Below are positions 35,607 through 45,808 of a stretch of 64,000 bases of DNA, piece after piece. The notes under the pieces are model-generated. The model ran no database searches, was not told where the DNA came from, and worked only from the letters and a program-made list of their open reading frames with translations. Numbering within the stretch: position 1 is the stretch's first letter; every line of letters starts with the position of its first letter. The position numbers and the translations under genes are program-made. Source of the stretch: Tepidiforma thermophila (GTDB lineage: Bacteria; Chloroflexota; Dehalococcoidia; Tepidiformales; Tepidiformaceae); assembly GCF_002563855.1 (NCBI RefSeq), contig NZ_PDJQ01000001.1:1178001-1242000 (forward strand), read 5' to 3'.

Positions 35607-36215
35607 CTACCCCGCCAGCAGCGCCTCCGTCTTCGGCAGCCACTCCGGCCGGCGCTGCTCGTACGCCGCGATCCGGTCCTCCAGTTGCAGCGTCAGCCCA
35701 ATGTCATCCAGCCCGTTCAGCAGGCAGTACTTCACGAACGGGTCGATCTCGAACCGCCGCTGCCACGTCCCGTCCGCTGTCGCCACCGTCTGCGACTCGA
35801 GGTCGACCACCAGCTCCGCCTCCGGCAGCTCCTCCGCCCGCGCGATCAGCCAGTCGCAGTCCTCCTGCGGGAGCGTCACCGTCAGCAGCCCCACCTTCGA
35901 GGAGTTGTTCCGGAAGATGTCCGCAAACGACGGCGCGATGATCACCCGCAGTCCCATATCGTCCAGCGCCCACACCGCGTGCTCCCGCGAGGACCCGCAC
36001 CCGAAATTCGGCCCCGTCACCATGATCGGCGCGCCCTTGTACACCGGCCGGTTCAGCACGAAATCCGGGTCCTTCCGCCACTCGTCGAACGCAAACGGCC
36101 CGAACCCGGTCCGCTCGATCCGCTTCAGGAACTCCTTCGAAATGATCTGGTCCGTATCCACATCCGCCCGGTTCAGCGGGATCACCCGCCCGCGCACGGT
36201 CTCGAACTTCTTCAT
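35607..36215 (-). CDS. leuD: 3-isopropylmalate dehydratase small subunit
   Basis: About 202 residues from ATG 36215 (GTG 36227 would add four). RVIPLNRADVDTDQIISKEFLKRI, GPNFGCGSSREHAVWAL and IIAPSFADIFRNNSSKVGLL are the LeuD blocks. It pairs with LeuC to isomerise 2- to 3-isopropylmalate. It begins two nt after the leuC stop. Confidence 0.96.
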   Translation of the reverse strand: MKKFETVRGRVIPLNRADVDTDQIISKEFLKRIERTGFGPFAFDEWRKDPDFVLNRPVYKGAPIMVTGPNFGCGSSREHAVWALDDMGLRVIIAPSFADIFRNNSSKVGLLTVTLPQEDCDWLIARAEELPEAELVVDLESQTVATADGTWQRRFEIDPFVKYCLLNGLDDIGLTLQLEDRIAAYEQRRPEWLPKTEALLAG

Positions 36216-36217
36216 CG

Positions 36218-37624
36218 CTACTTCCACTCCCGGATGTCAACGAAATGCCCGGCGATCGCCGCCGCCGCCGCCATCTGCGGGCTCACCAGGTGCGTCCGCC
36301 CGCCGCGGCCCTGCCGCCCCTCGAAGTTCCGGTTCGACGTGCTCGCGCACCGCTCCCCCGGCAGCAGGATGTCCGGGTTCATCCCGAGGCACATCGAGCA
36401 GCCCGCATCGCGCCACTCGAACCCGGCCTCCTTGAAAATCCTGTCCAGCCCCTCTTCCTCGGCCTGGTGCTTCACCAGCCCCGACCCGGGAACCACCATC
36501 GCCCGCACATGCGGCGCCACCTTTCGGCCCCGGACAATTTCCGCCGCCGCCCGCAGGTCCTCAATCCGGCTGTTCGTGCACGAACCGATGAACACCCGGT
36601 CCAGCCGGATCTCCTGGATCGGCGTCCCCGGCTCCAGCCCCATGTAGTGAAGCGCCCGCTCGGCCAGCTCCCGCGCCTGCGGCGTCGGCGCCTCCGACGG
36701 GTCCGGCACCCGGCCGGTCACCGGCACGCTCTGCGCCGGCGTCGTCCCCCATGTCACCGTCGGCTCGATCTCGGACGCATCCAGCGTCACGTACGTGTCG
36801 AACTCGGCGCCCTCGTCCGTCGGCAGCGAACGCCAGTAGTCCAGCGCCTTCTCCCAGTCCGCCCCCTTCGGCGCGAACCGGCGCCCCTCCATATACGCGA
36901 AAGTCGTGTCGTCCGGCGCAATCAGCCCGGCGCGCGCCCCGCCTTCGATCGACATGTTGCAGATGGTCATCCGGCCCTCCATCGAGAGCTTCCGGATCAC
37001 CTCGCCCCGGTACTCAATGACATGCCCCACGCCGCCCGAGACGCCGATCTTCGCGATGATCCCGAGAATCACGTCCTTCGCCGTCACACCCGGGTGCAGC
37101 TCGCCGTTCACCTCGACGGACATCGTCTTCGGCTTCGCCTGCGGCAGCGTCTGCGTCGCCAGCACGTGCTCCACCTCGCTCGTCCCGATGCCGAACGCCA
37201 GCGCCCCGAACGCGCCGTGCGTCGAGGTGTGGCTGTCGCCGCAGACAATCGTCATGCCCGGCTGTGTCAGCCCCTGCTCCGGCCCGATGACGTGCACAAT
37301 CCCCTGCCGGATGTCGCCAACCCCGAACAGCGGAATGCCAAACTCTTCGCAGTTCCGCCGCAGCGCCTCCACCTGCTGCACCGAAAGCGGGTCCGTCCAC
37401 GGCTTGTCCCGGTCGATCGTCGGCACATTGTGGTCCACCGTCGCCAGCGTCAGCTCCGGGTGCCGGACCCGCCGGCCCGCCAGCCGCAGCCCCTCGAACG
37501 CCTGCGGAGAGGTCACCTCGTGCACAAGGTGGAGGTCGATGAACAGCAGGTCGGGCTTCCCCGGCTCGCTCGCCACGACGTGCTGGTCCCAGATCTTCTG
37601 GATGATCGTGTTCGGAGTGCTCAC
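36218..37624 (-). CDS. leuC: 3-isopropylmalate dehydratase large subunit
   Basis: 468 residues of normal length. Contains the [4Fe-4S] cysteines in [15 protein letters not shown] and [10 protein letters not shown], and [32 protein letters not shown] (conserved block). GTG start at 37624. An upstream TACATT/TACACT pair on the minus strand about 40-70 nt away could be promoter elements; there is no clear leader peptide or T-box. Confidence 0.97.
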
Positions 37625-37702
37625 AGTCTGTCCTGCCGCGCGGATGTCGTTGCGGAATGTACTCCCCAGTGTAACAGGAGCCCGCCTTCCGGCCGCCGCG
37701 CC

Positions 37703-40444
37703 CTACCGCCGGAGCGGCGGCCTCGGGGCCTTTGTCGACTTCTCACGTTCCGCAAGCAGCGCCGCCTGCACCACCGCGACCAGCACCTGCGGCCCCGCGA
37801 ACGCCCGCGCAACGACCCGGTTGTCCGCCGAATCTGCCGCTTTGGTCACCCTGCCCGAAGCCGCGTGGCTGATGTATCCCGTGTTCACCACCACCAGGTC
37901 CACCGACCCGCGCGCACGGTCCACCGCCCTGTCGCCCTGTTTCGCCGCATCGGCGTCCAGCCAGTCCACCTTCAGCCCCAGCTCCTCGAGCCTCGGCACG
38001 GCCTTTGCCTGCAGGCTCGGGTGCCCGCCCACCACCAGCACCGACTTCCCCTTCAGTGCTCCGGCGGCCGCCTCCTTCGCAACCGGTGTGCCCAGCAGCT
38101 CATGCAGCTTCTCCCCGCCCGCCTCGCGAATCGGCGGCAGGTAAATCGACAGCGCCCTGAAATCGTCGAGGAGCGGCGAACTCTTCCGCTGCCGGAACAC
38201 CGCAATCGCCCGCTCCAGCAGCTCCTCGAACGGCTCCTCCCGCTCCACGGCCCACTCGAGCGCGGCCAGCACCGCCCGCTCCCGCAGGTACGGGAACGAA
38301 TCGAAGCACGTCTCGCACAGGTTCGGAATCTCGCCCTCGCGCCCCTGCCGCAGGTACTCCCGCACCAGCCGCTGAAATGCCTGGTCGGCGTCCTTATCGT
38401 GCTTCTTCTTCTCCGCCACTTCGAGCGCTTTCCGAAAAATCTTCAGCCGCTGCTCGCCATCCAGGGCGTCCGCACCCGGGATCGTTCCCTCCTCGATCCC
38501 GTCCGCAATCCGGTTCAGCGTATTGTCGCCCCGCTGCGTCGCCGCCGCGAACTCCACCGCCTCACTGAGCGCCCCCAAATCCCGGATTCCCCGCGCTTCC
38601 AGCGCACATGGCAGCACCTCGTCAATGACCTTGTCGGTCACGTGCCCGCTATCGTTCGCCAGCACCTCCGAAAGGTGCTCCCAGCTGTCGTCCAGTGGGA
38701 CCTGCGCCAGGTAGTCGAAGTACCCCTTGAATTCCTTTTCCAGCCCCCTCCCGTCCCCGTCGGCCGCCAGCCGGAAGGCCGCCAGGAACTCCGCGTACCC
38801 CCGCAGCTGGTTGTCGGTCTCGATCTGCCGCAGCAGCCGCCGCCGCTGGTCCCGCGTCGCCCACTCCCGCGGCCCGCGCGCGATGATCGCCAGCGCCGCG
38901 ACTGCCGCCGCCGAGGCGACCTCCTGGTGCGTGCGCGCCGCCTCGGGAATGAGCTCCAACGCCGTCTCCGCCGCCCACGCAAAATCCCCTGCAATCCTCG
39001 GGTCAACCGGCCACTGCATCTGCCATTCGGACATGTCGCCGGCGCGGTACAGCACATTGGCGAGCAGGACCAGCCCAAGAGCACGGATGTCCGCAGCCAC
39101 CTGCCCATCCCGCACAAATTCGCCGAGCCGCTCTTCGCCCACGTGGTCACCGCTCCGCTGCTTGCCGACGAACTGTGCGAGCCGCGCCAGCCCGTGGAGG
39201 TTCGGCTCCCGCCGGGCCGCCTGGGTATCCTCCACCAGCTCCGTCACCGCCCCGAGCCCCTCCCGGAACCTCGCCTCCGGCACGCCGCTCCCTGCACGCT
39301 GCACCTCGCTCAACAGCGCCGCATAGGCCTCGGCGAATCGCTCCCCGTCCTGCCCGAGCGCGCGGTTCAGCACCCGCCAGCCGCACTTCTGGAAGACCCT
39401 CCCCGCTTCCGCCTCGAGGTCGGGGTCCATCCGGCCGTCACGTTCTGCGGCAAACGCCCGGCGCAGCATCCGCAGCGCCTCGTCGTGCTGCTGGTTGTAG
39501 AAGTGCCACACCCCCAGCAGTGCCATCAGCGTCGCCCGCTCATCCGCCTCCGCATTCTCAAGCCGGCCCGCCAGCGCGAGCCGCGCAGCCTCGTCATGCT
39601 CGCCCCGCAGCCGCTCGAGCTCCGCCCGCCAGTCGAACGCCCCGCCCGGGGGCACGCTCTCCGCTTCCGGCTCCGCGTTGCCGACGGTCTCCTCTCCGCC
39701 TCCGAACGTCCCCGCGCCCGCCGTCGCCTGCCCGGATTCCAGCGCCTCCACCAGCCGCTCCAGCGCCGCCGTCAGCCGGTCCAGCCGCTCGAGCAGCCCC
39801 GCTCCGTCGATGGGCGCGGCCGCACTCGCTTCGCGCGCAAATACCACCGCCGGGCCCGCGGGTTCGTCCCCAGCCTCCGGCGCCGGCACAGCTGCCTGGC
39901 CGACAGCCCCGGGCGCGCCCTCCGCCGCTGCCGCATCCTCCCGCTCTGCCGCCTGCCGGTCCGCATCAATCCGCTGCTCCTCCGCGGCGCACCATGCCAG
40001 CACCCGCTCCCCGTCAGCGATCACCAGCCGCTCCCCGAACACCTGCTGCAGCACCCGCACTGTCAGCGGCACCCGCGGCAGCCGCCACCGCCGCTCCGGC
40101 GGCACCCACCGGTATCCCGGGACCCGCTTCACCAGCTCCTTGTCGGCGAACGCGCAGTGCACCGAGAACTCCGACTCCGCGTCTTCCAGCACGGCATCCG
40201 CCGTAGGCGCGCCCGCCGGCTTCCGCGCCTCCTGCACCTCCTCGCCGAGGTCCGATGGCGCACGCCAGTTTTCCGGCCCGAACAGCTCGTCGAGCAGCCG
40301 GTACACGCCTGTCTGCCGCGGCAGCGAAAACGCCCCCCGCGCCGGCACCCACCGGGCCCCGGGGAAATACCGCAGCATCACCCGCTCGCTCGCCAGCGAC
40401 GGCGCTGCGAGCAGGCGATTCTCCTCCGCTCGAATCTCCAGCAT
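37703..40444 (-). CDS. Large protein with two HARP-like units, helical repeat region and DUF2325-like C-terminus
   Basis: 913 residues, no clear full-length family. Residues about 23-56 (YFPGARWVPARGAFSLPR...LLDELFG) and 94-139 (RVPGYRWVPPERRWRLPRV...VLQQVFG) are two copies of a small module resembling the HARP DNA-repair domain. A linker rich in Ala, Glu and Pro (about 150-270) includes a helix ALERLVEALESG. Residues about 280-790 are helical, TPR-like at first (WHFYNQQHDEALRMLRRAF). The C-terminal ~110 residues (SVLVVGGHPSLQ, DLVVVNTGYISHAA) resemble DUF2325. No helicase, nuclease or transmembrane motif is seen. Start ATG 40444 with TAGAGT nine nt upstream. Function unknown. Confidence 0.75.
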   Translation of the reverse strand: MLEIRAEENRLLAAPSLASERVMLRYFPGARWVPARGAFSLPRQTGVYRLLDELFGPENWRAPSDLGEEVQEARKPAGAPTADAVLEDAESEFSVHCAFADKELVKRVPGYRWVPPERRWRLPRVPLTVRVLQQVFGERLVIADGERVLAWCAAEEQRIDADRQAAEREDAAAAEGAPGAVGQAAVPAPEAGDEPAGPAVVFAREASAAAPIDGAGLLERLDRLTAALERLVEALESGQATAGAGTFGGGEETVGNAEPEAESVPPGGAFDWRAELERLRGEHDEAARLALAGRLENAEADERATLMALLGVWHFYNQQHDEALRMLRRAFAAERDGRMDPDLEAEAGRVFQKCGWRVLNRALGQDGERFAEAYAALLSEVQRAGSGVPEARFREGLGAVTELVEDTQAARREPNLHGLARLAQFVGKQRSGDHVGEERLGEFVRDGQVAADIRALGLVLLANVLYRAGDMSEWQMQWPVDPRIAGDFAWAAETALELIPEAARTHQEVASAAAVAALAIIARGPREWATRDQRRRLLRQIETDNQLRGYAEFLAAFRLAADGDGRGLEKEFKGYFDYLAQVPLDDSWEHLSEVLANDSGHVTDKVIDEVLPCALEARGIRDLGALSEAVEFAAATQRGDNTLNRIADGIEEGTIPGADALDGEQRLKIFRKALEVAEKKKHDKDADQAFQRLVREYLRQGREGEIPNLCETCFDSFPYLRERAVLAALEWAVEREEPFEELLERAIAVFRQRKSSPLLDDFRALSIYLPPIREAGGEKLHELLGTPVAKEAAAGALKGKSVLVVGGHPSLQAKAVPRLEELGLKVDWLDADAAKQGDRAVDRARGSVDLVVVNTGYISHAASGRVTKAADSADNRVVARAFAGPQVLVAVVQAALLAEREKSTKAPRPPLRR

Positions 40445-40715
40445 CGACGCCCAACTCTACCACGCCCCCGGCCGGCCGATAGCGACAATTTCCCGCCACC
40501 TCCGGTGGCCGGCAGGGTCCCGTCAGGTGAACCCCGGGTGCACTTCTAACAGCCCTCTTATGGCTGCCCCTTGACACCCTGCGGTATCTTCACGGTGCGT
40601 TCACTGAAGTGGTCGAGCGGTGGACAGCACGGTTCGAGCGGGTGGCCGCACGGGACACCCGGGTTCGCTGGGGAGAGAACCCGGACCGCGCAGCCGGCCC
40701 GCAGGGAAGGTTCAG
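40445..40715. other. Divergent intergenic region upstream of the surface island
   Basis: 271 nt between the HARP-like gene and the first secreted protein. TTGACA at 40571-40576 is a perfect -35, but no good -10 follows at 16-18 nt. No RNA gene or convincing operator is seen. Confidence 0.4.
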
Positions 40716-41684
40716 ATGATGCCCCCCCGCATCGCTGCGCTCCTCGCCGCCGCCGTGGCTGCGTTCATTGCACTCGCTGCCCTCCCGGCAGCCGCCCAGG
40801 TCCCCTACACCGTCACCGCCATCTCGCCGGCACCCGTCCAGCCCGGCGCCCAGGCCGCCGTCACCATCCGCGTCGAAGGGCAGGTCGCCGCGCTCCCGAG
40901 CTTCGGCTACGACGTTGAAGGCGGCACCCTCGTCGGCGTTCTCGCCCCGACCCCGGTCGCCGCAGGTATCGCCGAAGGCACCGTGTTCGTCCGCCGCGAA
41001 ACCCCCGGCGCCGCCCGCCTCACCGTCAGCTTCGCCGGGCAGACCCTCGCCGCCGCCGATATCCGCTTTGCAGCCCCGGACGGCACCCTCCGCGTCCAGA
41101 CCACCCTCGATGCCGGGCCCGATGCCGCGGCCCGCACCTGGCGCTACCAGGTCCTGGATGCCGCCGGCACCGTCGTCGCCGAACTCCAGACGTCCACCAG
41201 CGGCGATGCACCCACCGGCGCCGCCCAGGTCACTCTCCCGCCCGGCGCCTACGCCGTCCGCCAGGTGCTCGGCAGCGATACCGCCCTCGCCTGCGCGCCC
41301 GGCGTCTTCTACGCCGTCGCCAGCCCCGCCGGCGCCGTCGCGACGGTCACCCTCGGCGCGGCCCCGGCCGTCGTCAGCTTCACCATCATCCCCTGCCCGG
41401 ACCTCCCGGAAGGGCTCGAAGTCATCATCCCGGTCGACACCATCATCCCCGGCGCTGGCCCGGGCATCGTCGGCGAACCCGTCGCCGCCCCGGCTGAGCC
41501 GCCCTTCAGCGAGGTCGCCGGCGCCCGCCAGCCCGGCCCCGGCGTTCTCCCCCCGGCCGCCGGCAACAGCCCCGCACCCCGGCCGGCGGGTCCTGCCCCG
41601 CTCCTCATCGCCGGCGTCCTGCTCCTCCTCTCCGGCGGCGGTGTGCTCCTCCTCGGCCGCCTCCGGTCCCGTCCCCTGGTGTGA
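40716..41684 (+). CDS. Secreted surface protein with C-terminal membrane anchor
   Basis: About 322 residues from ATG 40716, which follows AGGGAAGG by five nt. A signal peptide (IAALLAAAVAAFIALAALPAAAQ) precedes beta-rich repeats that look Ig-like, then a Pro/Gly-rich stretch and a terminal hydrophobic segment PLLIAGVLLLLSGGGVLLLG ending in Arg residues. The arrangement resembles a sortase sorting signal, but no LPxTG-like motif is visible before the helix. Cys 227 and others may form disulphides. First gene of the island that carries two sortases. Product unknown. Confidence 0.75.
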   Translation: MMPPRIAALLAAAVAAFIALAALPAAAQVPYTVTAISPAPVQPGAQAAVTIRVEGQVAALPSFGYDVEGGTLVGVLAPTPVAAGIAEGTVFVRRETPGAARLTVSFAGQTLAAADIRFAAPDGTLRVQTTLDAGPDAAARTWRYQVLDAAGTVVAELQTSTSGDAPTGAAQVTLPPGAYAVRQVLGSDTALACAPGVFYAVASPAGAVATVTLGAAPAVVSFTIIPCPDLPEGLEVIIPVDTIIPGAGPGIVGEPVAAPAEPPFSEVAGARQPGPGVLPPAAGNSPAPRPAGPAPLLIAGVLLLLSGGGVLLLGRLRSRPLV

Positions 41685-41737: not shown

Positions 41738-41917
41738 AACTATTTCCACGAACAGGCGTTCAGATTTTACGAACGAAGGCTTGACGCTATGCCCGGCCTT
41801 CGGCAATAACTGCAACAGCATTCCGGGCAGCCGCCGGTGGGTCGAGACGCCGGCGGACGCGCCCGCCACAATCCCACGGCGCCGGCGGGGTGCGCCCACG
41901 AGTCCCAGGGGGACTTC

Positions 41918-44900
41918 ATGGTGCGTTCCTCACGGCGGCTTCTGCTGTTTACCGCCCTCGCGATTCTCGCGGCCGTTGTCTCCGTCGGCCAGCTCCGCTT
42001 CGGCGAAACGCCCGCCCGCGCTGCCTACGACCCCTCCGGCCCCGCCTGGGACCCGCTCTCGACCTTCGATACCTCCAGCGACCCCGGCCCCGTCTTCCAG
42101 CCGCCGAAGCTCCTCGCTGGCACCAACTCCCACGCCCTCCCCGCGAACGCTGCCGCCCGCAACGGCTACTGCCTCGACGTGAACGTCCCCGGCGTCACCG
42201 CCGCCGGCATCGGCACGCTCGGCTTCGTCATCACCGCCAAAGATCCCATCGACCCCTCCAGCCCGCCCACCATCAACGTGCCCGTGCCGGCCTCCGGCAC
42301 CTACGCCTACGGCCCCGTCGGCCCGGCGGCCGGCGCCGACTTCTCCGACGGCGGCACCCCGGCCAACACCGCCGACGACGTCTACTGCGTCGTCGCCTAC
42401 GCCCCGCCCGGCTACCGCACCCTCTCCATCGCCTGGCACTGGGAGGGCACCGCTTCGGTTCCGAACCCCATCGTCCTTCCCGATATCTCCATCGTCACCG
42501 TCACCCTCGACAAGATCGGCGATGGCATCGTCGGCGGCCCTGCCGAGGTCTGCACCACCGGCTGGGACAGCACCTTCCTCACCGGCGCAGCCTCCAACCC
42601 GGTCTCCGGCGTAAATAGCCCCGCTATCCCCAACGGCCTCACCGACCTGCCCGACCCCGTCAACGCCGTCTCCACCTCCGACTTCACCATCGTGAGCTTC
42701 AGCGGCGCCAATCCCACCGTCGCCTACGTCCGCCAGGTCGGCCCCGAGTGGTGCGCCGGCATCGATGCCTCCGGCAACTCTTCGGACATCCAGGTCCAGT
42801 TCAACTTCCACGCCATCTACAACCGCGTCGATATCGGCAGCCCCACCGTCGCTATCGATAAGGACGGCGATGACCAGCCTGCCTCGCTCCAGCTGCCGGC
42901 CAACCGCCTCGTCAACATCACGCAGGTTGTCGAGCTGCGCCACGTCACCGTCGACGGCCGCACCCCGCCGCGGCCGCTCTCCGGCCCGCTCGCCCTCGGT
43001 TTCACCCACTACGTCTGCCTCATCGGCACCGTCGCCGCCGACTCGCTCCTCGCCAGCAACATCGTCTTCAGCCCCATTGGCGGCCCCGATGTCCCGGGCG
43101 CCAGCGCCGTCACCGTCTTCCACAAGTCCGCTGCCAATGAGCCCCGCATCGGTTCCCAGGTGCCCAACGGCACGCTCTGCTTCTCCTACACCTCGAACGC
43201 GCCCGGACAGCACACCATCGCCGCCTACTTCAACAACTCCGCAGCCGGCGGTGCCCTCACCGCAGCCTTCTTCGATACCGACGGCGACGGCAACGGCATC
43301 GTCGACCCCGGCCCCGCCAGCCCCCTCATCACCCGCTGGGTCCGTATCGACCGCACCGAGATTACCACCGGCGGCTCCCCAACCGCGGGCCGCGTCACCT
43401 TCGGCACCATCGAAATCCCCCTCCGCTTCAACGTCGCCGATGGCACCTTCCTCGCCAGCGCCAACCTCAGCGAGTGGGTCATCGGCTCCTTCAACTCCGG
43501 CAGCCCCCAAACCACGAACCTCCTCGTCGATGGCGCCCGCCTCGAAATGCGCATCATCGGCTGCGGCTACTTCCAGGTCCCCAACACCGCCCTCAAGCCC
43601 ACCACCGTCACCGGCATCTCCGTCGGCGGCCGCTTCGAACTGAACGACGGCTCCCAGGACCCCTTCGCACCCGACTTCGGCGATACCGACGCCAACCCCG
43701 ACGACATCCGCATCTCGACCACCAACGCCACAAACTGCGGTCCCTCCGCCGTCACCCGCCTCGAAATCGATGTCTTCTATCCCGGGCAAACCACGCCCGC
43801 GGGGACCACCGAATTCGTCACCATCCGCTACGTCTTCTTCCCCGGTCAGAAGGACATCCGCGTCGCCTGGGCCGGGCAAATCGTCACCCTCACCTACGCC
43901 TTCGCCTCCAACGTCTCCTGCGCCGGGCAAACCGTCCGCTTCAGTCGCGCCTCCGGCCCGGGCGCCTTCCTGCCCGCCGCCGGCGTGACCCTCGACGGCC
44001 CCGGCGCCGCATCCGCCGACTTCGGCGCGAACTGCTCCGTCACCGTCCGCTACGAAAGCGAATCCCCCGGTGAAGTCGATATCGAAGTCTTCATCGAGGG
44101 CCGCCCCTGGACCAAGATAGCCTTCCTCATCTACTACCTCGTCTTCGAGGACATCACGATCGACGCCACTCCCGACCAGTTCGTCTCCACCCTCGGCGGC
44201 GTTACAGCAAATGTCCGCGGCTACTTCGTCGGCTCGAACCCCTCCGGCCGGCCGGCAGAAACCAAGCCCGATGGCCGCACCGTCCCCGCCGACCGCTGGG
44301 TCCTCCCCGATGACTGGGCGAAACTCCGCGGCGATCCGAACTTCCGCTCCGACCCGCCCGAAATGCCCGCCGCCATCGTCACCTTCATGATGCAGAACGA
44401 GCCCGTCCGCAACAGCTACAAACCGCTCGTCACCAGCGGCTCCTCCGGCTTCTTCGTCCCCGACGACCCGACCGACTTCTCCCCCAACGTTAACCCGCAC
44501 ACGAAGGCGCCCACGGTCCTCGGCTCCGCCGCCAAACCGCGCATGTACTCCCAGCCCTCCGACGGCCAGGGCCAGGCCACAATCAGCACCTACGGCGACT
44601 TCAACCTCACCTTCGAGGAGTGCCCGGCCAACCGCATCACCGGCAACCCCCACTGCGAGCCGGAGCAGATCGTCGGCCGCGGGCGGTATATCGCCGTCGC
44701 CGAGTACCCCGAACCGACCACCCGCGGCAAGCACCCGGCGGTTGCCTCCACCATCGCCGAGACCGTCTGGCGCTGGGCCGGCTACAAGCGCGTCACCGTC
44801 GTCAACGGCGAATCGCCCCAGTTCAAGTACGTCGTCGCCCACCTCAAAGACCGCGACGGCTTCTGCGACGCCGCCAACTACAACAACGTCCTCGGCATCC

Positions 44901-45808
44901 CCATCCGCTTCGAAATCGATGCCGGCTCCGGCGTCATCCTCGATGCCGCCGACCAGCCCGTGACCATCAACGGCACCCGCCGCTTCGCCACCGCCACCAC
45001 CTTCGACACCGTCGACCCGCTCGGCAACCCAATCAACGTCGCGATCGCGAAGCCCGTCATCCAGGACGACGAATGCCAGGCCTGGATCCGCATCAGCAAC
45101 AGCCTCATGAAGCCCGCCAACGTCATCGTCACCTTCCCGGCGCTCCCGGCCCCCATCCCGGGCAACGTCACCATCTCTGCCTTCACCTGCACCGGTCAGG
45201 AGTCCATCACCATCACCAACCGCGGCACCGCGCCCGTTAACCTCGCCGGCTTCGGCCTCCAGAGCCCCGGCGGACAGGTCGGCATCGCCGAGCACCTCGA
45301 CCTGTCCGGCCTCCTCCAGCCCGGCCAGAGCGCCACCTTCTTCGGCGGCCCCGGCGCCGCCGCCCGCGGCTGGATCGGCAACACCGGCGACCGCATCCTC
45401 GGCCCCGGCGATTACGTCGCCCTCACCTGGAACGACGTCGTCCTCGCCACCGCCTTCTGCAGCACCGGCCAGGTCGTCGAACCGTTCATCCCGCCCGTCC
45501 TCCCGCTCGACCCCGAAGGCGAACTCGTCCTCGACGTCATCGTTCCCTTCGGCGACGAGGTCGAGGTGCCCCTCACCGCCGGCTGGAACCTCGTCCCCAC
45601 CGGCCAGAGTACCATCGCGGTCGGCAGCGCCCTCGGCGATAACGCCGCAAAGGTCGCCGTCATCTACGCCTGGGACGCCGAGAAGCAGGAATGGCTCCGC
45701 TACATCCCGGGCGCGCCCGATGCCGTTAACACGCTCACCGAACTCGGCGGCGGCCGCGCCGTCTGGGTCTACGTCAACGAGCCGTTTACCCTCGTGCTCC
45801 CGCGCTGA
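41918..45808 (+). CDS. Giant secreted surface protein with lamin-tail-like domain and C-terminal GWN module
   Basis: About 1296 residues from ATG 41918, which follows AGGGGGAC. An N-terminal signal helix (RRLLLFTALAILAAVVSVGQL) is followed by roughly 900 residues of beta-rich sequence with many Cys. Near the C-terminus ESITITNRGTAPVNLAGFGL then FFGGPG and GDYVALTWNDV fits a lamin-tail (LTD) domain. The last ~85 residues (GWNLVPTG, YAWDAEKQEWLRYIPGAP, VNTLTELGGGRAVWVYV) form a module shared with the 51473 gene. No anchor helix or LPxTG is present at the C-terminus. Function is structural or adhesive at best; unknown. Confidence 0.82.
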   Translation: MVRSSRRLLLFTALAILAAVVSVGQLRFGETPARAAYDPSGPAWDPLSTFDTSSDPGPVFQPPKLLAGTNSHALPANAAARNGYCLDVNVPGVTAAGIGTLGFVITAKDPIDPSSPPTINVPVPASGTYAYGPVGPAAGADFSDGGTPANTADDVYCVVAYAPPGYRTLSIAWHWEGTASVPNPIVLPDISIVTVTLDKIGDGIVGGPAEVCTTGWDSTFLTGAASNPVSGVNSPAIPNGLTDLPDPVNAVSTSDFTIVSFSGANPTVAYVRQVGPEWCAGIDASGNSSDIQVQFNFHAIYNRVDIGSPTVAIDKDGDDQPASLQLPANRLVNITQVVELRHVTVDGRTPPRPLSGPLALGFTHYVCLIGTVAADSLLASNIVFSPIGGPDVPGASAVTVFHKSAANEPRIGSQVPNGTLCFSYTSNAPGQHTIAAYFNNSAAGGALTAAFFDTDGDGNGIVDPGPASPLITRWVRIDRTEITTGGSPTAGRVTFGTIEIPLRFNVADGTFLASANLSEWVIGSFNSGSPQTTNLLVDGARLEMRIIGCGYFQVPNTALKPTTVTGISVGGRFELNDGSQDPFAPDFGDTDANPDDIRISTTNATNCGPSAVTRLEIDVFYPGQTTPAGTTEFVTIRYVFFPGQKDIRVAWAGQIVTLTYAFASNVSCAGQTVRFSRASGPGAFLPAAGVTLDGPGAASADFGANCSVTVRYESESPGEVDIEVFIEGRPWTKIAFLIYYLVFEDITIDATPDQFVSTLGGVTANVRGYFVGSNPSGRPAETKPDGRTVPADRWVLPDDWAKLRGDPNFRSDPPEMPAAIVTFMMQNEPVRNSYKPLVTSGSSGFFVPDDPTDFSPNVNPHTKAPTVLGSAAKPRMYSQPSDGQGQATISTYGDFNLTFEECPANRITGNPHCEPEQIVGRGRYIAVAEYPEPTTRGKHPAVASTIAETVWRWAGYKRVTVVNGESPQFKYVVAHLKDRDGFCDAANYNNVLGIPIRFEIDAGSGVILDAADQPVTINGTRRFATATTFDTVDPLGNPINVAIAKPVIQDDECQAWIRISNSLMKPANVIVTFPALPAPIPGNVTISAFTCTGQESITITNRGTAPVNLAGFGLQSPGGQVGIAEHLDLSGLLQPGQSATFFGGPGAAARGWIGNTGDRILGPGDYVALTWNDVVLATAFCSTGQVVEPFIPPVLPLDPEGELVLDVIVPFGDEVEVPLTAGWNLVPTGQSTIAVGSALGDNAAKVAVIYAWDAEKQEWLRYIPGAPDAVNTLTELGGGRAVWVYVNEPFTLVLPR

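Follow-up and report, generated by a model that had tools for sequence, protein, structure and literature searches.

Tandem HARP-like units and a C-terminal DUF2325 domain in a motor-less chromosomal protein of Tepidiforma thermophila

In the 64,000-nucleotide stretch of the Tepidiforma thermophila genome analysed here (hereafter the window; positions 1,178,001 to 1,242,000 of a 2.74-Mb contig, NZ_PDJQ01000001.1, from a hot-spring bacterium), one gene encodes a 913-amino-acid (aa) protein in which two HARP-like units, a long helical repeat region, and a DUF2325 domain follow one another. The two units are duplicates of each other and akin to the N-termini of phage SNF2 helicases, the three-part plan occurs in two families, and no motor domain is present. 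The domain anatomy is firm; as to the function, we infer from it, tentatively and with somewhat less than even confidence, an adaptor that is encoded on the chromosome, has no motor, and works on nucleic acid, probably DNA. The parts of the gene are as follows (window coordinates; the evidence is given in parentheses).

37703..40444, minus strand: whole gene, 913 aa, ATG start (open reading frame (ORF) and 13 full-length relatives among 61 genomes)
40259..40444, minus strand: HARP-like unit 1, about residues 1-62 (profile P values and predicted model)
40010..40198, minus strand: HARP-like unit 2, about residues 83-145, with invariant K106, GYRW 110-113, and W120 (profile, model, and invariant columns)
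39653..40009, minus strand: acidic, poorly conserved linker, about residues 146-264 (charge and identity)
38063..39652, minus strand: helical repeat (TPR-like) region, about residues 265-794, about 500 residues (predicted structure)
37808..38044, minus strand: DUF2325 domain, residues 801-879, predicted to be alpha/beta and Rossmann-like over about 795-897 (Pfam and model)

Tandem HARP-like units

The structure of the N-terminal pair was predicted with AlphaFold2 on a 12-row alignment of the region (hereafter A2), with a predicted local distance difference test (pLDDT) score of 94.8. In the model, the order strand-strand-helix-strand-strand-helix occurs twice; each unit has four strands of three or more residues and two helices (for unit 1, E2-6, E10-14, H18-25, E31-33, E38-42, and H45-55), and a fifth short strand follows unit 2. 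According to PMC4666394, HARP domains (two in SMARCAL1 and one in UvsW) are needed for fork reversal, and in their fold two helices pack against a sheet of about five strands. Both units of the model appear to have this fold; they resemble the HARP of SMARCAL1 and phage UvsW (PF07443) in the order and size of the elements, and their tandem arrangement is as in vertebrate SMARCAL1.

The model was compared with viral models by Foldseek, in which two matches fell below E 0.001: an uncharacterised phage protein (4.7e-7, 151 columns) and a "HepA-related protein" of a Bacillus phage (E 1.7e-4). Weaker matches included DNA helicases, a DUF5710 protein, and a SMARCAL1-named protein. Against the PDB, no Foldseek match passed E 0.001, and the first listed were MutS and XPB/TFIIH chains (E 0.14 upward), the XPB chains representing the XPB N-terminal domain. 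A second structure comparison with the PDB placed archaeal XPB first (Z 5.6, root-mean-square deviation (rmsd) 2.1, 55 residues; Z 5.4; Z 5.3), with CASTOR1 and the initiation factor eIF1 tying within 1 Z, and such Z values alone prove little. The matches to the HepA-related protein and archaeal XPB are a further likeness to the HARP of SMARCAL1 and UvsW; Mason et al. in 2014 reportedly linked HARP to the XPB damage recognition domain. The SMARCAL1 HARP structure itself was not among the matches listed, which is no evidence either way.

In A2, both units share PG-x-RW ... LP ... L...FG, and the profile alignment of unit 1 with unit 2 gave P 1e-11, while 100 column shuffles reached at most a probability of 3.4%. 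The residues invariant over the 13 relatives cluster in unit 2 (C97, D101, K106, G110-W113, and W120) and in DUF2325. A phage search with the window protein (tblastn) returned four records at E 0.5-0.7, all of which align unit 2 with helicases of related phages, and these weak matches became a lead only after the profile test. The Streptomyces phage match is the N-terminus of a 628-aa SNF2-type helicase, with the SNF2 domain directly behind the unit. Ten phage helicases were chosen among 40 listed of 89 records, and their N-termini were aligned. With this alignment, unit 2 gave P 2.9e-13 (probability 97.5-98%) and unit 1 gave P 6.3e-9, and the best P in 100 column shuffles for each unit was 0.013. 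The reversed-template control was not clean, as unit 2 matched the reversed phage units with a probability of 33% (P 4.6e-4), which is far weaker than the real match of 98% yet stronger than the 100 shuffles. The phages had been reached via the window protein itself and the profile comparison was thus not blind, but the margin is wide. The actinobacterial phage SNF2-type helicases (e.g., gp70 of Streptomyces phage Wentworth) therefore carry an N-terminal unit homologous to both units of the window protein; they differ in having one unit each, followed by the SNF2 motor.

The Pfam HARP model (PF07443) had no match at E <= 10 in the window protein or anywhere in the genome. Because of this, the units are HARP-like by fold and by kinship with phage SNF2 helicase N-termini, and are not members of Pfam HARP; the absence of this match and of a motor domain separates the window protein from SMARCAL1 and UvsW. 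The first-pass annotation of the window, made by a model from the letters alone, had called the units tandem and HARP-like, which holds for the fold, the duplication, and the phage kinship, and not for the family model. The ten phage units behave similarly in Pfam, with sub-threshold matches to HARP in one (E 0.018) and to DUF5710 in two (0.025). DUF5710 (PF18974) has the same motif around PG-x-RW and the W residues, and was found below threshold in the N-termini of all seven relatives scanned (best 22.2 bits against a cut-off of 26.5; best E 1.2e-4) and in 5 of the 13 members in the Pfam scan at E <= 1, with no match at E <= 10 in the window protein itself. Since the 26.5-bit cut-off was never exceeded, DUF5710 was rejected for unit 2, although by sequence it fits this unit best. 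Searching of solved structures by sequence, with the full profile as well as with the N-terminal pair and the DUF2325 domain separately, gave no convincing relative; scans of viral contigs with the N-terminal and DUF2325 alignments found no relative, and the plasmid search with the window protein found no match.

Helical region, DUF2325 domain, and relatives

The model of residues 265-913 (pLDDT 87.4) consists of helices from about 272 to 784, followed by four strands alternating with helices. In structure comparisons, the helical part gave the matches expected of any long repeat protein. TPR models remained below their cut-offs (TPR_10, 13.8 bits against 27.5 in the window protein) and matched, also below the cut-off, 1 to 5 of the 13 members depending on the model (Pfam, E <= 1); the all-helical model still permits the label "TPR-like", and the large helical middle seen at first pass is thus borne out. 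No helicase family was found in any of the 13 members (Pfam scan, E <= 1), and so the SNF2/SF2 ATPase of the SMARCAL1/UvsW-type annealing helicases is lacking; nor was a helicase found in ten scanned neighbouring proteins and the two adjacent leu genes, as had been annotated.

DUF2325 (PF10087) was matched with 34.9 bits in the window protein (gathering cut-off, 33.6; 39.8 bits in the genome search) and in 13/13 members (Pfam, E <= 1), which confirms the DUF2325-like C-terminus. The conserved motifs are GG, D, and I-[SG]-H-A-A, in what is predicted to be a small Rossmann-like domain. Taken together, the profile, Pfam, and structure matches show similarity to both HARP and DUF2325, and the protein is not a plain TPR scaffold. 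The DUF2325 part resembles cobalamin-binding Rossmann-like domains in fold (Z 9.1, rmsd 2.8, 97 residues; Z 8.2, 110 residues). B12-binding domains have a DxHxxG motif in the first loop; B12 binding was rejected for DUF2325, as the fold match is of a common kind, DxHxxG is missing, and the loop is GG[HR], in which the histidine is not conserved. Other DUF2325 proteins have the same domain above the cut-off, but Cj1384 of Campylobacter jejuni is a cysteine-rich protein of 104 aa encoded beside katA (PMC9426514), whereas in the window protein the domain closes a 913-aa chain. As a side observation, a Pseudanabaena plasmid with a type III-A CRISPR region encodes there, two genes past cas2, a 115-aa DUF2325-like protein (L068:9989-10336, +) adjoining a four-helix-bundle protein.

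The 13 full-length relatives all belong to the 37 genomes of the window's family, and M1 is invariant in 13/13, in agreement with the called ATG start. Most score three to five hundred bits or more, and the identity in the alignment ranges from 26 to 83%; two further matches in one genome (G056) were left out, being short and one having a stop. A scan of the GTDB contig collection found none with the single protein and 11 with the alignment, all of which coincide in their coordinates with members of the 13. Among named relatives, the closest are chromosomes of Tepidiforma (class Dehalococcoidia, Chloroflexota) and metagenome bins. The linker is the least conserved part (mean identity, 0.28; net charge, -3 to -16). 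The ratio of nonsynonymous to synonymous substitution rates (dN/dS) of the whole protein was 0.355 for one close pair (G000-G004) and 0.243 for another, indicating coding constraint; it was loosest in the linker (0.64 and 0.43) and varied between the pairs in unit 2, where sites are few (0.63 and 0.19). The G000 and G004 copies of the protein share 83% identity, against 100% for LeuD, 99.8% for LeuC, and 87-99% for most neighbours, only a transferase being lower (82%).

In another family of the class, G058 encodes a 1003-aa protein (L049:188-3196, -), which was found by the A2 profile not containing it. Its two units gave E 9e-14 and 1.2e-4; the protein, although very divergent, can be aligned with the family profile over its whole length (P 2e-13), and its C-terminus matches DUF2325 below the cut-off (E 8.4e-6, 27.5 bits). 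Among 393 genomes of the class searched with the profile and G058, 21 had a match at E <= 0.01, of which 14 were three-part proteins (the 13 and G058) and the other 7, including G594 and G601, were single-unit or chance matches. Set aside as chance were the N-terminal profile matches in rhodanese-like proteins (G604, which was read, and G703 of the same family, unread) and in short or interrupted frames (G294, G524, and G687). The full profile had six matches in 400 genomes of the phylum, three of which were three-part proteins. The three-part plan predates the window's family, and because all parts are kept in the 13 relatives and in the divergent G058, they likely work together. The architecture was not found in the accessible parts of the literature searched (DUF2325, DUF5710, HARP with SMARCAL1, Dpd, and Tepidiforma).

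In other families, the full profile also matched two proteins at their ends (in G112 and G429). That of G429 is a 752-aa TPR-DUF2325 protein (hereafter X) between DpdK and DpdE, in the run DpdJ-DpdK-X-DpdE-DpdF-DpdG-DpdH of a Dpd (7-deazaguanine DNA modification) island. On a Scytonema plasmid, DpdA, DpdJ, and DpdK are followed by X; G298 and G070 likewise have DpdJ-DpdK-X; and in G112, X lies on a 4-kb contig with an unrelated neighbour. X, which has no PADLOC label, thus comes directly after DpdJ-DpdK in 4/5 loci, and the proteins that follow DpdJ and DpdK are listed below.

L065:7652-9907 (+): TPR-DUF2325 protein X
L067:14001-16184 (+): TPR-DUF2325 protein X
L071:1501-3714 (+): TPR-DUF2325 protein X
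L078:1-1822 (-): TPR-DUF2325 protein X

X is a candidate for a further component of Dpd islands and is not DpdD; the identity of the two was rejected because a DpdD match lies elsewhere in both genomes tested. The accessible parts of the Dpd literature (PMC11888242 and PMC12839542) mention no such TPR-DUF2325 protein. Like the window protein, X has a helical region and a homologous C-terminal DUF2325 (profile P 1.9e-11). It differs in its neighbourhood, in the helical region, which does not align with that of the window family (P 0.024), and in having no HARP-like units: an assignment of its N-terminus to such units was plausible by eye and failed by profile (P 0.13-0.5, no better than the reversed sequence).

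Position of the gene beside leuCD

Gene calling was performed on the 13 loci, and the features next to the gene in the window are as follows.

36218..37624, minus strand: leuC (isopropylmalate isomerase large subunit), next downstream, 78 base pairs (bp) away (structure-database matches)
35607..36227, minus strand: leuD (small subunit) (structure-database matches)
37668..37676, minus strand: TGTTACACT, extended -10-like motif between the gene and leuC (TGnTAnnnT read in the window)

The gene lies directly upstream of leuC on the same strand in 10 of the 13 relatives, with gaps of 66-106 bp; leuD then follows in nine of these, and the contig of the tenth (L026) ends inside leuC. The other three carriers hold the gene elsewhere. 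Further neighbours by Pfam are leuB, a leucyl/phenylalanyl-tRNA transferase (aat-like), a thioesterase, a cupin, a biotin carboxylase, and a dehydrogenase, and acyl/biotin carboxylase-like and secreted proteins also occur near the gene. TGnTAnnnT is present in 8/10 gaps to leuC, always 16 to 26 bases after the stop; a sigma-70 promoter scan gave no site, an Rfam scan gave no RNA, and the stretch 37500-40900 held no terminator-like site. For seven genomes that lack the gene and two carriers that have it elsewhere, about 4 kb upstream of leuC was read, and tblastn found no remnant of the gene there at E <= 0.001. In G012, only 456 bp separate leuC from the flanking gene, representing an empty site, and three genomes of its genus carry the gene. 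In view of the empty site and the lack of remnants in the non-carriers, the gene is accessory, keeps a stable place, and is gained or lost as a whole. The promoter-like motif in the gaps and the empty site suggest that the adjacency to leuC is a position effect.

Two other proteins were noted at these loci. A 263-aa protein (L029:8089-8877, +) is encoded directly upstream of the relatives of the gene in two carriers, and the same kind of protein lies upstream of leuC in two non-carriers. In the window, 41837-45808 (+) encodes a divergent protein of surface type, 1323 aa long, which matches a lamin-tail domain below the cut-off; its order beside the gene is kept in most of the closest relatives.

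Possible functions

For the adaptor, we infer DNA binding, a partner, and a ligand, the first because the kin of the units are modules of DNA enzymes. The two HARP-like units, of the fork- or junction-sensing "wedge" type that elsewhere sits on SNF2/SF2 motors, would hold a branched or single/double-strand junction; the helical superhelix would dock a partner, which would supply any enzymatic activity; and the C-terminal DUF2325 may bind a ligand or partner and so set the state of the protein. DNA binding had been proposed at first pass, and by analogy the kinship of the units is consistent with it. Several results speak against the adaptor. The main one is the charge of the units, which over the 13 members is -1 to +4 in unit 1 and -3 to 0 in unit 2, not basic overall, whereas the ten phage units used for comparison have +1 to +9, except for one at -1; the helical region is at -19 to -33, and DUF2325 at +1 to +6. 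To these are added the missing Pfam HARP match and the neighbourhoods, as no conserved DNA-repair, helicase, or nuclease gene was found in the 13 loci; the survey for such partners, suggested at first pass, met leuCD instead in most.

Near-neutral units, a strongly acidic remainder, a long helical repeat region typical of scaffolds, and metabolic neighbours would also fit a large intracellular scaffold in which the HARP-like units act in protein interaction, DNA binding having been lost or never acquired, with DUF2325 binding a partner or small ligand. We hold this to be rather unlikely, as unit 2 keeps its aromatic and basic signature (K106, GYRW, and W120) in 13/13 members and the units are most closely related to parts of DNA enzymes. 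It is a good deal less probable that the protein senses invading or damaged DNA as a chromosomal counterpart of the Dpd-island proteins, with DUF2325 triggering a response. The place of X after DpdJ-DpdK, the homology of the DUF2325 domains, the small DUF2325 protein near cas2, the patchy presence (13/37 family genomes), and the fast evolution beside neighbours such as LeuC are in its favour. The window protein, however, has no PADLOC match at E <= 1, no Dpd proteins stand alongside its gene, as they would in a Dpd system, and its N-terminus and helical region do not align with those of X; the position beside leuCD is stable, no plasmid match was found, and HARP-bearing DUF2325 kin in a defence island numbered 0 in the 13 neighbourhoods examined. 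The defence role suggested at first pass is therefore not upheld: the neighbourhood is housekeeping, the phage matches are weak ones of unit 2, and the only link to defence belongs to distant relatives that share DUF2325, in Dpd islands. Very improbable is a role in regulating or assisting leucine biosynthesis from a transcript shared with leuCD, as the close spacing on one strand and the lack of a terminator-like site would allow; three carriers have the gene elsewhere, leuC is full-length in all six non-carrier family genomes whose upstream stretch was read, one with the empty site, and the extended -10-like motif would serve leuC alone.

To return to the adaptor, HARP modules have been studied as parts that make SNF2 motors fork-remodelling enzymes; a conserved motor-less HARP-like pair uncouples sensing from motion and could reveal how the wedge acts by itself. 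For DUF2325, rarely treated in the literature searched, it also provides a structural setting and a tie to Dpd islands. A wider scheme, which we regard as speculative and improbable as a whole, would have HARP-type wedges as the core of motor-free junction sensors: the paired wedges would read DNA structure, the state would pass via the superhelix to DUF2325 as a switch that binds a ligand or partner, and one switch domain, in the same end position, would be common to a chromosomal DNA-structure sensor and the Dpd defence island.

Single HARP-like units were observed in two other settings. In G601, one is located at the N-terminus of an ORF (L140:1441-1902, +) whose further part is the beginning of a tyrosine recombinase, the remainder of which is the next ORF. 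A 139-aa protein (L064:1393-1812, +) consists of one HARP-like unit and a coiled-coil-like tail, and its gene adjoins a DNA methyltransferase-like gene.

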